Source of the DNA: a virus
IMG/VR virus record: IMGVR_UViG_3300000956_000043
Location: 1 to 23,883 of that record
Strand: one strand, 5' to 3'
DNA length: 23,883 nt
A model generated the notes under the pieces. It saw only the letters and a program-made list of their open reading frames with translations. It searched no databases and was not told where the DNA came from. Below, piece by piece: positions 3,886-9,989 of the stretch (within the stretch, counting starts at the first letter, position 1; every line of letters begins with the position of its first letter). The position numbers were made by a program, and so were the translations under genes.

Positions 3886-4226
3886 ACAACAGCGAAAGCG
3901 GCTTCCGGGCCTACGTCGACCGGGACTTCTTCATGTTCGACGGCCTGCGGATCTGGCTGGTCGACCGACGTGGCCAGCGACGAGCGCTGATGGTGTCACA
4001 TACCCCGGTGTTCGAGGAGGCAGACGAGACGATTCAGCACGAGCCGTCTCTACGACTGGAGGACGGCGCCGCCCGTGCCCTCCTGGATGCACTCGCCGCG
4101 TACTTCGGCGGCACCGGAGAGCTGCAAACCCTACGCCGCGACTACGAGGCCGAGCGCAAGCGGGTGGACCGGTTCATCGAACACCTGACCCGGCGAGACT
4201 CGCCGAACACACCCCCGGGTGCTTGA
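3882..4226 (+). CDS. Hypothetical protein
   Basis: This encodes 114 residues from the ATG at 3882 behind CAGGAGACCGGC, overlapping the previous TGA. The N-terminal half is strand-rich (FRAYVDRDFFMFDGLRIWLV, RRALMVSHTPVFEEAD). The C-terminal half contains LRLEDGAARALLDALAAYFG and a basic helix RRDYEAERKRVDRFIEHLTR. Its stop codon lies inside the -35-like TTGACG of the promoter for the next gene, so it closes the early run. No family is recognised. Confidence 0.75.
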   Translation: MNNSESGFRAYVDRDFFMFDGLRIWLVDRRGQRRALMVSHTPVFEEADETIQHEPSLRLEDGAARALLDALAAYFGGTGELQTLRRDYEAERKRVDRFIEHLTRRDSPNTPPGA

Positions 4227-4227
4227 C
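4206..4227 (+). promoter_or_regulatory. 22-base promoter-associated element, copy 1
   Basis: The element reads AACACACCCCC, three variable bases, then TGCTTGAC. It recurs at 5164-5185 with 19 of 22 bases identical, the three differences all falling in the middle. Both copies end in a -35-like TTGAC. A shared regulator or shared promoter architecture is inferred. Confidence 0.6.
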
Positions 4228-4257
4228 GCACCGGATGTACTGGTATTAACTACATCC
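4223..4257 (+). promoter_or_regulatory. Promoter for a leaderless regulator mRNA
   Basis: TTGACG at 4223-4228 is a near-consensus -35. TATTAA at 4244-4249 (spacer 15) or TAACTA at 4247-4252 (spacer 18) could be the -10. The ATG at 4258 follows the -10 by 8 or 5 bases, and no purine-rich ribosome-binding site is present. Together this predicts a transcript starting at or near the A of ATG, as is common for leaderless genes in Actinobacteria. Confidence 0.55.
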
Positions 4258-4632
4258 ATGGTTGAGCGCGAACAGGTCTGCGTCCGCCTTGATGTGGAAG
4301 TGGTAGAGGCGATCGACATCCTGGCGAAGGCACACCTGCGCAGCAGGTCGGACATGATCCGATTTCTCCTGGCGGAGGCCCTCGCGTACCGCGAGGAGCC
4401 CACGGAGGAGTTTGAGCAGATGGTCCGCCGCACCGTGGCCCAAGTCATCGCCGAGATTGCGCCGAGTGTCAGTGAGTACGTCGAGACCCTCCGGCCAGCC
4501 GTACCCGCCACCGACATCCCACGCGACGCGGCGGGGCTCGCTCAACTCCTAGGAGTGTCGCCCGACTTCGCGCCAACCCCAGTCGACCTTCTGCCGTATC
4601 GAGTCATGAACAAAGCCGAGGAGCCAAAGTGA
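4258..4632 (+). CDS. Ribbon-helix-helix DNA-binding regulator
   Basis: This encodes 124 residues from the ATG at 4258. Residues 6-42 have the CopG/Arc-like layout: a short strand (QVCVRLDVEVV), helix A (EAIDILAKAHL), the turn RSRSD, and helix B (MIRFLLAEALAYRE). The remainder (about 45-124) is an acidic helical tail that could mediate oligomerisation or partner contacts. It has its own promoter and no ribosome-binding site. The downstream nuclease-like gene overlaps its stop (GTGA), so the two are co-transcribed. A repressor role, possibly autoregulatory, is inferred from fold and context. Confidence 0.8.
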   Translation: MVEREQVCVRLDVEVVEAIDILAKAHLRSRSDMIRFLLAEALAYREEPTEEFEQMVRRTVAQVIAEIAPSVSEYVETLRPAVPATDIPRDAAGLAQLLGVSPDFAPTPVDLLPYRVMNKAEEPK

Positions 4633-5452: not shown

Positions 5453-6034
5453 ATGAATACGCAAGCGGAGGTGTCGGTGGCCCGACTCGACAAGGCTCGA
5501 CGTCGGGCTGTCGCGAAGGTCCTCCCCCCGGTCAAGTGCAGCGGAACGATCTGGAGCACGGGACTGCAGTGCGACCAGTGGGCCGTCGTCGGCGCCACGG
5601 TGTGCCCCACCCACGGGGGCAGGGCACCACAGGTCCGGGAGGCAGCCGAGCGCCGTGTATCCATCGCCGAAGCCCTGGTCCGCAACGACCCCCGTCCCCC
5701 ATGGGAAGTGCTCGAGGATGCCCTACGGGTAGCCGACGTTGTCATGCAGGACGCCCTGGGTGAGGTCAAGGAACTGGGTAGCGTCACCCCGCAACTGCTG
5801 GACAAGCTCATCGCAGCGGTGGAGCGGGCACACAGGCTAGCCAAGGTGAACCTCGACGCGGGCATCGACCAGCGCAGGATGCGCCTAGCCGAGGCGCAGG
5901 CAGAGCAGATGCAGCGGGTCTTCACCCGGGTACTCAACGGCCTAGGACTTACGGCAGAGCAGCAGGCACTCGTGCCGCAGCTGCTGAGGCGGGAGATCCA
6001 GGGCGTGGTGACACGGGAGATAGAAGCGGCTTGA
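5453..6034 (+). CDS. Zinc-finger protein, candidate small terminase subunit
   Basis: This encodes 193 residues from the ATG at 5453. A GTG at 5477 has a better ribosome-binding site (GGAGG, 5 bases upstream) and may be the true start, giving 185 residues. Residues about 29-66 contain the motif C-x10-C, then VCPTHGGRAPQVREAAERR, a zinc finger seen in actinophage proteins encoded just before the large terminase. Residues 70-185 are largely helical (LLDKLIAAVERAHRLAKVNL and a long charged helix), fitting an oligomeric DNA-binding small terminase. The large terminase is about 1.6 kb downstream rather than adjacent, which weakens the assignment. Confidence 0.6.
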   Translation: MNTQAEVSVARLDKARRRAVAKVLPPVKCSGTIWSTGLQCDQWAVVGATVCPTHGGRAPQVREAAERRVSIAEALVRNDPRPPWEVLEDALRVADVVMQDALGEVKELGSVTPQLLDKLIAAVERAHRLAKVNLDAGIDQRRMRLAEAQAEQMQRVFTRVLNGLGLTAEQQALVPQLLRREIQGVVTREIEAA

Positions 6035-6234
6035 CGCTGAAGGGTTGAAGGCAACAAAAGCCCGATGACCTTGAAAACGTAGGCTGCCAGGACGTATCCC
6101 GCGGTCTACCCATGGCGCGCCAGTGACCCACTGGGCTACAACATAATGACTCTTATGTCTACGCAGAGTCACGGGGCTGCTCTAGAACTAGGGCATAACG
6201 GGACATAAGCTGTTCGATAATGGCCATTATGTAA
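6035..6234. promoter_or_regulatory. AT-rich palindromic intergenic block
   Basis: This 200-base stretch has no convincing gene and is visibly richer in A/T than its surroundings. It holds a hairpin at 6120-6134 (CCAGTG-ACC-CACTGG), ACATAA at 6141-6146 facing TTATGT at 6153-6158, and a 7-base inverted repeat TGACTCT/AGAGTCA at 6147-6153 and 6165-6171. It also has ACATAA at 6203-6208, the perfect 14-base palindrome ATAATGGCCATTAT at 6217-6230, and TTATGT at 6227-6232. GATAAT at 6216-6221 resembles a -10 box but lacks a recognisable -35. Operators, a recombination site or a control region are possible readings. No tRNA could be folded from it. Confidence 0.55.
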
Positions 6235-6327
6235 AGTACGCAGGTCAGAGGCCTTCTGGAATGCTTCCAAAAGTTCGCAGGGGCCGGAGATCAGGATCTC
6301 TCTACTCCACAGGACATCAAGATCAAC

Positions 6328-6561
6328 TTGAGCCCGATCGTAGCCAGATACGGCACTCAGGCATGGCGCTACCTGGGCTGGACCGACCGTGGTCTGGCGC
6401 GGATAGAGCGATGGAAGGCAAAGGCTGCTGCCTGCGGCATGTCCACGGCTGAGGTTGAGGCGCTGTGGGCACAGGTGGAGCTGGCCCAGATGCTCGGTGC
6501 TACGCCGTTCAGCGCGCTGGTAGAGGCGGACCGGCGGCTTGTGGCCTGGATGGCGCGCTAG
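6328..6561 (+). CDS. Hypothetical protein with uncertain or lost start
   Basis: From a TTG at 6328 this encodes 77 residues (SPIVARYGTQAWRYLGWTDR, ending RRLVAWMAR), mostly helical, tryptophan-rich and of protein-like composition. The frame stays open upstream to 6235 with equally protein-like sequence (VRGLLECFQKFAGAGD), but contains no ATG or GTG, only a CTG at 6256. Immediately before the open part, in the same frame, sits ATG TAA at 6229-6234. The gene may use a rare start or may have lost its original 5' end. Its TAG shares the CTAG at 6558-6561 with the convergent - strand gene. Family not recognised. Confidence 0.5.
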   Translation: MSPIVARYGTQAWRYLGWTDRGLARIERWKAKAAACGMSTAEVEALWAQVELAQMLGATPFSALVEADRRLVAWMAR

Positions 6562-6719
6562 GGTCTCCATCCTTTCGGCATGCGTTGGGCGTAGGCGAGC
6601 ATCCGTCGCATGAGCTCGGAGCGGGACAGGCCCTCGTCCTTGGCGCGGGTTTCCAGGGCTGCGGAGCCGGCCTGGGTGAGCCAGAGGCCCACGAAGTAGG
6701 GGCGTCGGCGGGTGGGCAT
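6558..6719 (-). CDS. Short ribbon-helix-helix protein
   Basis: This - strand gene of 53 residues runs from the ATG complementary to 6717-6719, with an in-frame stop just upstream, to a TAG complementary to 6558-6560. The sequence begins MPTRRRPYFVGLWLT (basic start plus strand), continues with helix QAGSAALETRAKDEG, turn LSRSE and helix LMRRMLAYAQRM, and ends PKGWRP. This is the standard layout of tiny actinophage ribbon-helix-helix proteins. The - strand sequence TATGTT, six bases, then ATG lacks a ribosome-binding site and fits a leaderless promoter. Two identical TGTTTAACA sites upstream suggest autoregulation. It lies between the small and large terminase genes. Confidence 0.75.
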   Translation of the reverse strand: MPTRRRPYFVGLWLTQAGSAALETRAKDEGLSRSELMRRMLAYAQRMPKGWRP

Positions 6720-6760
6720 GTGTTAAACATACTGCCGAATCAAGATCCCGTGTTAAACAC
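6720..6760. promoter_or_regulatory. Two identical operator-like sites 30 bases apart
   Basis: GTGTTAAACA occurs at 6720-6729 and again at 6750-6759. Each contains the near-palindrome TGTT-A-AACA, and the second extends to GTGTTAAACAC. The centre-to-centre distance of exactly 30 bases is close to three helical turns, placing both on one DNA face. The first overlaps the inferred -10 and start of the - strand ribbon-helix-helix gene; the second overlaps its upstream promoter region and precedes the + strand gene at 6776. This suits a dimer-of-dimers repressor site controlling both directions. Confidence 0.6.
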
Positions 6761-6775
6761 GCGCCGGGGGGTGTC

Positions 6776-7489
6776 ATGCCCGCTCGGGTGATGGTGGCTG
6801 GCCGGTGGGCGGGGGTTGAGGAGATCCTGGGTCATCCGGGACATTCCAGCCAGAAGTCGCATGGTCGCAGAGGTGGGCCGGGCACCGGGCGGAACCTGAT
6901 CGAGACCAAGGAGGCGGCCGAGGCGTTGGCCGCCCGTGTCTGGTCGACTGCCGGCGAGTCCCAGTTCGGTCCGCACGGCGACGAAGTTCTGCATCACATC
7001 GTCAAGGAGCAGGGGTTCGGCCCGACCGAAGTGGTGCCGAAGGGTCAGATGGACGCGATCCGGGCCGAGCACAGGGGGATGTTCCGGGGGGTCGGGCCGT
7101 CGCGCGACGGGAAGAAGTCGGGCGACGACATTCACAATGAGATGGCAACCGACGCCGCGTTCCAGGGTCGGGGGGTTGCCGGCAACGGCACCTACATGAC
7201 CAGTCGGGCCAGCGAGGCCGCAGGATACGGGACGGTGCGGGCCTACGCACTGCACAAGGACGCCCGGGTCGTGCAACATAACGAGATGCACGCCGAACAG
7301 AAGGCGTTCCTGAGTCAGCTCGACCGGGGGTCGCTGGCTCATGCGATGTTCAGCGACCGCGGCCGGTTCGCCGCCGCCCGTGGGTATGACGCGTACGAGT
7401 GGGAGTTCTCCGATCCCGAGGCTGGTGGGGCCATGACCGGCCGCTGGGTGGTACTCAATCGCGGGGCACTGTTCATGGAGGAGGCGTAA
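6776..7489 (+). CDS. ADP-ribosyltransferase-like protein with HPGH leader
   Basis: This encodes 237 residues from the ATG at 6776, with GGGGGGTGTC before it. Residues 1-32 form a leader with HPGHSSQKSHGR at 20-31, shared with the metallopeptidase-like protein at 9153. The body has features of phage ADP-ribosyltransferase-fold proteins: FRGV at 103-106 (candidate NAD-binding Arg), the GNGTYMTS loop and strand at 136-143 followed by ASEAAGYG, GYDAYEWE at 203-210, and WVVLNRGAL at 224-232. Members transfer ADP-ribose from NAD to host proteins. Exact catalytic Glu assignment is unclear. It is followed with overlap by a small acidic gene and then the large terminase. Packaging in the virion is inference. 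Confidence 0.7.
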   Translation: MPARVMVAGRWAGVEEILGHPGHSSQKSHGRRGGPGTGRNLIETKEAAEALAARVWSTAGESQFGPHGDEVLHHIVKEQGFGPTEVVPKGQMDAIRAEHRGMFRGVGPSRDGKKSGDDIHNEMATDAAFQGRGVAGNGTYMTSRASEAAGYGTVRAYALHKDARVVQHNEMHAEQKAFLSQLDRGSLAHAMFSDRGRFAAARGYDAYEWEFSDPEAGGAMTGRWVVLNRGALFMEEA

Positions 7490-7680: not shown

Positions 7681-9156
7681 ATGGACATCCCCGCCGCCGC
7701 ATGGGACAAGTTCCTCTCGTTCTACGAGCCGAAGGCCGACAAGTACGCCACGCCGGGTCAACTGGCGCAGGCCCTTGATCACCGGACCGTCCAGACCCCG
7801 GCGCTGGATCTTGTCGACCAGGCGTTGTGCAACCTCGCCGACGGGCTGACCAAGCGGCTGATCATCTCGATCGCCCCGCAGGAAGGCAAGTCGGAGAGGG
7901 TGTCGCGGCGGTTCCCGCTGTGGATGCTGCTCCGCAACCCCGACCTGCGGATCGCGATCGCGTCGTACGAGGCGACTAGGGCCAGACGGTGGGGGCGGGC
8001 GATCCGCAACGACATCAAGGCGCACCCCGAGCTGGGGCTTTCGGTGTCGTCGGACCGGGCGGCGGCGGCGGACTGGCAACTGGCGGCCTCCAACGGGTCG
8101 ATCTACTGCGTCGGTGTGGGCGGGGCCTTGACGGGTAGTCCGGTGGATCTCATGATCATCGACGACCCGCACAAGGGCCACAAGGAGGCCGACTCTCCCG
8201 TCCAGAGAGATGACGTGTGGGAGTGGTGGACCGGCACCGTCCGGACCCGGTTCGCGCCGGAGACGCCGATCGTGCTGATCATGACCCGCTGGCACGAGGA
8301 CGACCTCGCCGGACGGATGATCCGCGACGACGGGGCGTCGTGGACCGTGATCAACATCCCGGCGCAGGCCGACCACCGGCCGGACCACGGCGAGACCGAC
8401 CTACTTGGAAGGGAGCCGGGGCAGTTCCTGGTCTCCACCCGCGGCCGACATGAACTGCGGCCGAAGGGGACGTGCGCCAAGCACCCCGACCGGGAGTGCT
8501 GCGACTGGGAGGACATCAAGGCCGACGTCGGCTCCCGGACCTGGAGCGCGCTGTATCAGGGCAAGCCTTCACCGGGTGAGGGGCTGATCTTCCGCCGGGA
8601 GTGGTGGCAGTACTACCAGACTCCTCAGTGGCTGGTCGAAGACGACGGCACCCACCTGACGCTGACTTTCGACGAGGTCCTGACGTCCTGGGACTTTGCG
8701 TTCAAGGACACCGACTCGTCGGACTTCGTGGTCGGGCAGGTCTGGGGACGCAGGGGAGCGGACGCATACCTGCTGGACCAGGTGCGGGGACGTTGGTCGT
8801 TCGTCGAGACGTGCATGCAGTTCCGGTCCCTCGCCGCGAAGTGGCCTTCGGCCATCGCTCAACTGGTGGAGGACAAGGCCAACGGTCCTGCGGTCATCTC
8901 GTCTCTGCAGCGAGTGGTTCCCGGGATCATCCCGGTCCAGCCGGACGGGTCCAAGGTCGCGCGGGCGAGCGCGGTGAGTCCGTTCTGTGAGGCCGGCAAC
9001 GTGTATCTGCCGGAGTTCGCGCCGTGGGTCGGTGACCTGGTCGAGGAGTGCGCGTCGTTCCCGCTCTCGACCCACGACGACCAGGCCGACACGTTGTCCC
9101 AGGCGCTGACCCGACTGCTGCTGCACAACGTCCGACCCCGGGTGAGGTTCCTGTGA
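7681..9156 (+). CDS. Terminase large subunit
   Basis: This encodes 491 residues from the ATG at 7681, after GGGGGTGTC. It powers DNA packaging at the portal and cuts concatemers. The ATPase half has a Walker A-like loop APQEGKS at 65-71 (an atypical form), Walker B LMIIDDP at 157-163 and a coupling motif around TRWHEDDLAG at 202-211. The nuclease half shows the RNase H-like acidic residues in SWDFAFKD (Asp338), VEDKANG (Glu397/Asp398) and HDDQAD (466-470). A Cys-containing insert, CAKHPDRECCDW at 265-276, sits between the domains. Length is normal. The stop overlaps the next GTG (GTGA), so the following gene is co-translated. Confidence 0.95.
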   Translation: MDIPAAAWDKFLSFYEPKADKYATPGQLAQALDHRTVQTPALDLVDQALCNLADGLTKRLIISIAPQEGKSERVSRRFPLWMLLRNPDLRIAIASYEATRARRWGRAIRNDIKAHPELGLSVSSDRAAAADWQLAASNGSIYCVGVGGALTGSPVDLMIIDDPHKGHKEADSPVQRDDVWEWWTGTVRTRFAPETPIVLIMTRWHEDDLAGRMIRDDGASWTVINIPAQADHRPDHGETDLLGREPGQFLVSTRGRHELRPKGTCAKHPDRECCDWEDIKADVGSRTWSALYQGKPSPGEGLIFRREWWQYYQTPQWLVEDDGTHLTLTFDEVLTSWDFAFKDTDSSDFVVGQVWGRRGADAYLLDQVRGRWSFVETCMQFRSLAAKWPSAIAQLVEDKANGPAVISSLQRVVPGIIPVQPDGSKVARASAVSPFCEAGNVYLPEFAPWVGDLVEECASFPLSTHDDQADTLSQALTRLLLHNVRPRVRFL

Positions 9157-9989
9157 AGCTGCGGGTCTCGGGGTTGTGGGTGGACGTCGGGAACGTTATC
9201 GAGTTGCTGAACCACCCGGGCCACGCCGACCAGAAGTCACACGGACGCAAGAAGTCCGGCGGCGATCACGAGGTCCGGGACGCGCTCGCTGGCGCCGGGA
9301 CGATTGGGGCGATTAGCCGCGCCGCCGCGGCAGAGGCGAAGCGCATCACCGGGCGGGACATTCTATTCGAGATGGACGGGTCGGACCCGCAGACCGCCAG
9401 GGAGCACGCGGAGGGGGTCCTCCAGGGGCTGGAGCGGTTCCCCGCTGCGAATCTTGGGCGCGTCAGTGTGGCGAGGCTTGGCCCAACCACCTATGCGCAC
9501 GCCGACGGAAACACCATCGTGTTCAACTCAACCTACGCATCCAGGGCCGGCCGGGCCGAGTACCTCAAAAGCCTCGCCGTGGATGTGCGGGGGTGGGACG
9601 AAGGGCTTCAGGTGTACGGAATCAGCGCTCTGAAGATGAGCGGCTTCCATACCCGCAACAGTGGGTCCCCGACGGCGGTCGCGCTGCACGAGTTCGGCCA
9701 CGTGATGGACATTGCGACGACGCATCGACGCAGTGGGCCGCGGGTGGATGAGATTGTCCAACGGGCCACGAAGCGCGAGCAGGCCAAGCAGACCGTGCCC
9801 GGTAGTCCGGTGAGTGGATCCGGCGATCTGGTACTTCGGACCGTGTCCGGCTACGCGATGACCAACCGAACGGAACTCATTGCCGAGGCGTTTACCGATG
9901 TGATGGTGAATGGCTCCGGCGCGTCTTCGGTCTCTCGCGACATCTTCGGCGTCCTGGAGGACTCGTACAACGCGTCCCACGGGAGATGA
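9153..9989 (+). CDS. HExxH metallopeptidase-like protein with HPGH leader
   Basis: This encodes 278 residues from a GTG at 9153, coupled to the terminase. The leader contains HPGHADQKSHGR at 21-32, the same motif and position as in the ADP-ribosyltransferase-like protein. The catalytic signature is HEFGHVMD at 179-186 (two zinc-binding His and the general base Glu). A later NRTELIAEAFTD at 238-249 offers a Glu as third zinc ligand, with an upstream Tyr (GYAM). This matches zincin-type proteins found with phage head genes. The segment 95-165 is strand-rich. Substrate is unknown: host target, cell wall or phage protein. Activity is inferred from the motif only. Confidence 0.75.
   Translation: MKLRVSGLWVDVGNVIELLNHPGHADQKSHGRKKSGGDHEVRDALAGAGTIGAISRAAAAEAKRITGRDILFEMDGSDPQTAREHAEGVLQGLERFPAANLGRVSVARLGPTTYAHADGNTIVFNSTYASRAGRAEYLKSLAVDVRGWDEGLQVYGISALKMSGFHTRNSGSPTAVALHEFGHVMDIATTHRRSGPRVDEIVQRATKREQAKQTVPGSPVSGSGDLVLRTVSGYAMTNRTELIAEAFTDVMVNGSGASSVSRDIFGVLEDSYNASHGR

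Follow-up and report, generated by a model that had tools for sequence, protein, structure and literature searches.

What does an AT-rich cluster of nested palindromes do among the packaging genes of a GC-rich phage? The window analyzed here, a linear fragment of a virus contig (IMGVR_UViG_3300000956_000043, 23,883 bases), carries such a cluster at positions 6120-6232, for which an earlier note had named three candidate roles: operators, a recombination or attachment site, or a packaging-related site. Within the cluster lies a close match to dif, the chromosomal site at which the recombinases XerC and XerD act.

The AT-rich stretch and its genomic setting

Direct reading of the letters and a computed repeat search confirm all of the repeats that had been described for 6120-6232, and the composition of the stretch is indeed out of keeping with its surroundings (48.7% GC versus 67.4% for the whole window). 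Of 23,770 windows of 113 bp, 48 are as AT-rich, and the lowest of them starts at 6137. ACATAA half-sites occupy 6141-6146 and 6203-6208, and TTATGT half-sites occupy 6153-6158 and 6227-6232. A 7-bp inverted repeat pairs TGACTCT (6147-6153) with AGAGTCA (6165-6171), and a perfect 14-bp palindrome, ATAATGGCCATTAT, at 6217-6230 is the sole AT-rich one among six such palindromes in the window. At the upstream edge, the hairpin CCAGTG-ACC-CACTGG (6120-6134), found by direct reading, is kept in the centroid fold and has no terminator-like T run. Arms of 6 bp around a 6-bp spacer occur at 13 places in the window and are thus not rare alone, and the fold of the AT-rich stretch is not unusually stable (z -1.07), on which grounds a strong cruciform was rejected. 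An RNA or tRNA feature was likewise rejected, since searches of the window returned neither a tRNA nor any Rfam family passing the gathering threshold. The feature of the stretch that stands above chance is its match to dif, beyond the repeats taken singly.

On its 5' side the stretch has a putative small terminase gene (5453-6034, plus strand) and on its 3' side the large terminase gene (7681-9156, plus strand), the dif-like site being about 1.4 kb from the latter. The large terminase subunit is clear from its match to phrog_38 (E 1.1e-106) and from tblastn matches to phage terminases, whereas the small subunit, also part of the placement described earlier, is assigned from its position and a weak similarity (31-34% identity) to translated stretches of two other records (L004 and L005); its product matches phrog_3678, of unknown function. 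Actinobacterial phages account for 13 of the best 20 terminase matches among phages, the top match being Microcystis phage MinS1, and the host is therefore probably an actinobacterium. Two neighboring proteins, encoded at 6776-7489 and 9048-9989, have an N-terminal motif, HPGHxxQKSHGR, in common; their remainders differ by eye, and neither has a Pfam match. The earlier view that no gene explains the cluster is likely correct, but three minus-strand ORFs of at least 60 aa do enter the stretch (5942-6172, 5949-6131 and 6169-6777). The last of these, a 202-aa ORF covering the dif-like site, has no Pfam or PHROG match.

A dif-like Xer core at 6210-6237

The sequence at 6210-6237 on the plus strand is very probably an Xer site and thus a candidate for XerC and XerD. 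It has a 28-bp, 11+6+11 layout, consisting of an XerC-like arm, CTGTTCGATAA (6210-6220), a 6-bp center, TGGCCA (6221-6226), and an XerD-like arm, TTATGTAAAGT (6227-6237). Compared with the sequence suggested as the dif site of Frankia alni in PMC3025954, 21 of 28 bases are identical, and the next place in the window reaches 18. The agreement with that sequence is distributed over the XerC arm (7/11), the center (4/6) and the XerD arm (10/11); in the XerC-like arm the inner CGATAA is kept and the outer CTGTT differs. None of 300 shuffles reached this score: the 150 Markov shuffles of the window peaked at 20, a single time, and the 150 of AT-rich composition at 19. Set against the actinobacterial dif consensus, positions 6210-6235 agree at 21 of 26 bases, and the next best place in the window agrees at 17. 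A matrix built from 42 phage sites, with the center ignored, gives 34.7 bits at 6210, a score that is partly circular because one and the same core served to select both the matrix sites and the contig set. Circularity weighs less on the F. alni comparison, on the flanks and on the second palindrome's rank. The flanks are T (not C) before the site and AAA after it, which amounts to one of the two dif-type flanks.

Chromosomal dif sites of the Actinobacteria type have the 28-bp 11+6+11 layout, AT-richness, the XerD arm TTATGTNAAGT and an XerC arm ending in CGATAA in common with the window site. Unlike them, the window site lies on a phage contig near a terminase gene, differs in its outer XerC arm and in its TGGCCA center, and is accompanied by a degenerate second copy 74 bp away. 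This second site, CTACAACATAA-TGACTC-TTATGTCTACG (6136-6163, plus strand), is the second best place for the matrix in the window at 2.8 bits, the next different place scoring -4.8. It has the same strand and 6-bp spacer as 6210-6237 and 16 of 28 bases in common with it, and we read it as a weak, apparently degenerate copy of the Xer-like site. Between the two, direct reading finds two direct CATAA half-sites on the minus strand (GGCATAACGGGACATAAG, 6192-6209). Both the degenerate site and these half-sites may be accessory recombinase contacts. Taken together, the copy of dif and its place beside packaging genes suggest that the phage may borrow XerC and XerD from its host for processing its genome. 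The recombination site proposed among the earlier candidates is in this respect supported, and can be named as a dif-like XerC/XerD core.

The conservation among related genomes by which the earlier note had proposed to judge the cluster was not seen. A matrix scan of 17 terminase- or portal-related loci, with identities of up to 64%, gave no comparable site (best 4.4 bits). These 17, out of 35 fetched, are the full set of 11 portal loci and 6 of the 24 terminase loci; some are near-duplicates, and in L006, L188 and L195 the terminase or portal gene is preceded by little available sequence. The full 24 terminase loci, compared with the actinobacterial dif consensus, agree with it at 19 of 26 bases at best, and a BLAST search with 6100-6260 returned one weak match among phages. 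In the absence of a site in these relatives, what supports the assignment is dif itself together with sites in unrelated phages.

Scanning viral contigs for the core CGATAATNNNCATTATGT returned at least 119 stretches, many of which are chance matches. Flank classing covered 117 of the listed stretches and measured how often a site falls in a stop-free stretch of at least 150 codons. Such long stretches surround 10% of the 40 sites with C before and NAA after, 25% of the 36 with the C flank only, 36% of the 11 with NAA only and 50% of the 30 with neither flank. The window site belongs to the NAA-only class, and its own 220-codon stop-free stretch arises from the minus-strand ORF at 6169-6777. 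Pattern searches of this kind also meet a trap, in that the coded motif VYIMAIIGAIFG spells an exact dif core in DNA. Three records with the window's exact core, its center TGGCCA included (L106, L152 and L153), were set aside as coincidence on this account, their cores lying inside one kind of head-protein-like coding sequence. Short dif-like matches were also observed in small rodent-faeces viruses that read as microviruses (H83-H85, H87-H92 and H101), several of them inside a replication initiator gene.

Sites upstream of large terminases and in terminal repeats

In contigs that carry a dif-like site and a detected large terminase, the site often lies shortly before the terminase gene. Of 33 such contigs, 22 have it 0-2 kb upstream of the large terminase domain; counted by family this is 15 of 25, where 2.7 would be expected and 20,000 random placements gave at most 10. 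Control contigs have a site in this interval in 1 of 12 cases (Fisher p 0.0006 by contigs). When PF03237 is the sole terminase model, as in the control, 19 of 26 contigs qualify, as do 13 of 19 families, versus 1 of 12 (p 0.0003 and 0.002, respectively). Because short contigs make chance hits likelier, the count was also restricted to contigs of at least 10 kb, where 12 of 22 families have the site within 2 kb upstream and 1.6 would be expected. The window has the same arrangement.

These counts start from 50 records, picked by hand, that measure at least 10 kb and have a core preceded by C or followed by NAA; a few of them sit in a stop-free stretch of at least 150 codons (L037 and L070, for example), and some qualifying records (L032, L035, L054, L107 and L108) were left out. 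A further 17 records, 11 of which came from later scans, enlarged the sample, and the 33 of 67 with a terminase match at E ≤0.001 were counted, several of these matches falling below Pfam's own cut-off. Families were grouped by hand from flanking sequence, and PF17289 was searched in the 50 only. PF03354, a further terminase test, matched 1 of 34 records (L170), which PF03237 matches as well. One contig with site and terminase at opposite ends (L128) was scored as a miss, and two whose sites appear by reading to be near terminase-like ORFs (L103 and L045) were left out. The control consisted of 36 records whose match is without a dif-type flank or is embedded in a long stop-free stretch; PF03237 matched 12 of them, and for three (L061, L085 and L153) the distance to the terminase was judged from ranges or locus positions.

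Isolated phages carry such sites as well. A BLAST search with one phage site returned 86 phage records, 62 of them from Enterococcus phages, with E values up to 5 among the matches listed. Six of the sites were inspected, of which five lie outside annotated genes and four of these five have the 11+6+11 layout; the site of phi4:1 has a 5-bp rather than a 6-bp center. The sixth site, that of Arthrobacter phage Hirko, was dropped, being inside an ORF. We inspected the record ends of BC611, fHoEfa06, Ef2.2 and Blastoid, together with one end each of Jayan and EG103P3. In each of the first four, an exact direct terminal repeat contains the site: the repeat measures 341 bp in Enterococcus phage BC611, 340 bp in fHoEfa06 and 319 bp in Ef2.2, also Enterococcus phages, and 830 bp in Bacillus phage Blastoid (L173, L182). 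The repeat-bearing phages belong to two genera, Saphexavirus (BC611, fHoEfa06 and Ef2.2; L178-L181, L200, L201) and Andromedavirus (Blastoid). As in the window, the Xer core of BC611, fHoEfa06 and Blastoid lies upstream of the terminase genes; its distance to the large terminase exceeds 2 kb in Blastoid (2.7 kb) and BC611 (5.3 kb). Whereas the sites of these four phages lie in a terminal repeat, the window is a linear fragment, and a comparison of the ends of the 23,883-base record found no terminal repeat. With the site at both ends, a genome would be well suited to recombine into a circle. The packaging-related role suggested for the cluster is supported by position only, through sites upstream of large terminases and inside the terminal repeats of other phages.

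FtsK activates XerCD at dif, and an FtsK/SpoIIIE gene is annotated in Blastoid. Its relative Glittering carries an FtsK/SpoIIIE gene, whose role was left open by the authors, and an 851-bp repeat (PMC3853048). The idea of a phage FtsK as a general Xer activator was dropped, since an FtsK domain occurs in 2 of 50 site-bearing contigs (the hand-picked terminase set) and in 3 of 50 controls, made up of the 36 control records and 14 loci related to the window by terminase or portal.

Circularization, integration and other possible roles

We consider it an even bet that host XerCD recombines copies of the site within the terminal redundancy of the phage, circularizing or monomerizing its genome. 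In this model, host XerC and XerD would bind 6210-6237. Packaging presumably starts in the region of the site, and each end of the linear genome in the capsid would then hold one copy within its redundant sequence. Once the genome has been injected, host XerCD would recombine the two copies into a circular genome, from which the phage would benefit, and later it could reduce multimers to monomers. In two families of sites, relatives with similar flanks differ in their centers (TGCCCA, TACCCA and CACCCA in one, TCTCCA and TACCCA in the other), and variable centers beside kept flanks fit a site that needs to match only its own copy. Counting against this reading are the missing terminal repeat in the record, the empty scan of the 17 related loci, the single dif-type flank of the window site, the distances above 2 kb in Blastoid and BC611, the lack of a general FtsK link and the four families with a constant center described below, besides the chance occurrence of exact cores inside genes. 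Bacteriophage P1 offers a parallel, its loxP/Cre system likewise using a site near the packaging start to circularize a terminally redundant genome and keep it monomeric. P1 encodes its own recombinase, whereas in the phage of the window the host would supply XerC and XerD.

The main rival is integration at the host dif, under which the site would be the attP of a temperate phage without its own integrase, inserted at the chromosomal dif by host XerCD in the manner of known Xer-exploiting elements (IMEXs). The core follows the same logic as known IMEX att sites, and integration at dif is the known use of dif mimics (PMC9765430, PMC3025954). Legionella LME-1 (PMC9765430), filamentous phages such as CTXphi, and gokushoviruses are, like the phage of the window, mobile elements with a dif mimic for host recombinases; they integrate at dif, whereas the window comes from a tailed phage with its site near the terminase, for which no integrated example was found in a search that did not reach actinobacterial genomes. 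The four bases that the TGGCCA center has in common with that of F. alni would suit integration, as would the constant centers of four families, although the search pattern itself fixed half of the center. In the two families described above, by contrast, the center changes while flanks and arms are kept, which a fixed host center should not freely allow. The exact 18-bp core of the window is also at about chance level in the genome collection, with 7 occurrences against 7.5 calculated and no actinobacterial title among them. One of these occurrences, preceded by GTC in a contig of a Verrucomicrobiota MAG (L146), has no ORF of at least 120 aa across it and precedes, by about 500 bases, a 261-aa protein of unknown role; since the neighboring proteins match phage families, this core probably belongs to phage DNA and not to a host dif. 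Further against integration, sites occur in Saphexavirus and Andromedavirus, both regarded as strictly lytic.

The window fragment encodes no tyrosine recombinase domain, which would favor integration by a host enzyme. The argument from a missing integrase was dropped, however: tyrosine recombinases are found in 7 of 50 site-bearing contigs and 6 of 50 controls, and the lack of an integrase is uninformative because both sets have one equally often. The site-bearing set here was 50 of 52 NAA records (L092 and L119 left out) and differs from the 50 used for terminase and FtsK; the controls had the make-up given above for FtsK. Elements that exploit Xer include filamentous phages, microviruses, tailless phages and islands. 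On balance we regard integration as rather unlikely for the window, though a serious alternative to recombination between the phage's own copies.

A recombinase encoded by the phage itself, outside the fragment, might instead act on the dif-like site. Dif-like sites do adjoin tyrosine recombinase genes in L035, in L107 and in plasmid pASPHE301 of the actinobacterium Pseudarthrobacter, where the XerD arm TTATGTAAAGT lies 5' of a site-specific integrase gene. With no tyrosine recombinase domain in the window and no excess of these enzymes in site-bearing contigs, we consider this improbable. In L107, a large UvrA-like ABC protein was also observed by reading beside the tyrosine recombinase and dif-like site.

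More doubtful still is an operator role, in which the palindromes would bind a phage regulator of late genes and the match to dif would be coincidental. Several half-sites do fall within about 100 bp, and ribbon-helix-helix proteins are encoded at 4219-4632 and 6561-6719 (minus strand), but the dif score stands above every shuffle, and a simple scan of 5950-6800 (sigma-70 consensus only) found no promoter-like site and no terminator. The nearest regulator, moreover, has boxes of its own: the 53-aa protein at 6561-6719 (RHH_1, E 3.3e-5) has two GTGTTAAACA boxes, at 6720 and 6750 (stretch 6720-6759), just upstream of its gene start, and is likely a self-regulated repressor. The operators proposed in the earlier note accordingly find no backing at this locus. 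Least plausible, and very unlikely in our view, is that the cluster is the packaging recognition site itself (cos or pac), as its place between the putative small and large terminase genes might suggest, since the part it has in common with other phages is the Xer core, found with terminases of different Pfam matches.

Recombination of the phage's own copies by host XerCD may extend beyond the window. We tentatively propose, at somewhat less than even confidence, that tailed phages broadly, lytic ones included, keep a dif-like site in or next to their terminal redundancy for circularization and monomerization by host XerCD, a lox/Cre-like arrangement with a host-supplied recombinase and a center that is free to drift because only the phage copies must match. 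A literature search at the level of titles and abstract openings, over partial listings and with few subscription papers, found no account of dif sites in the terminal repeats or beside the terminases of tailed phages. For many linear phage genomes without cohesive ends or their own recombinase, circularization is often left to general homologous recombination; if the proposal is true, host Xer sites in terminal repeats would offer a specific and testable answer. Phage infection would then depend on the host's chromosome-segregation enzymes, and the site could serve as a sequence marker of where the packaged genomes of uncultured phages end. Finding a dif-like site in a phage is not in itself proof of integration.
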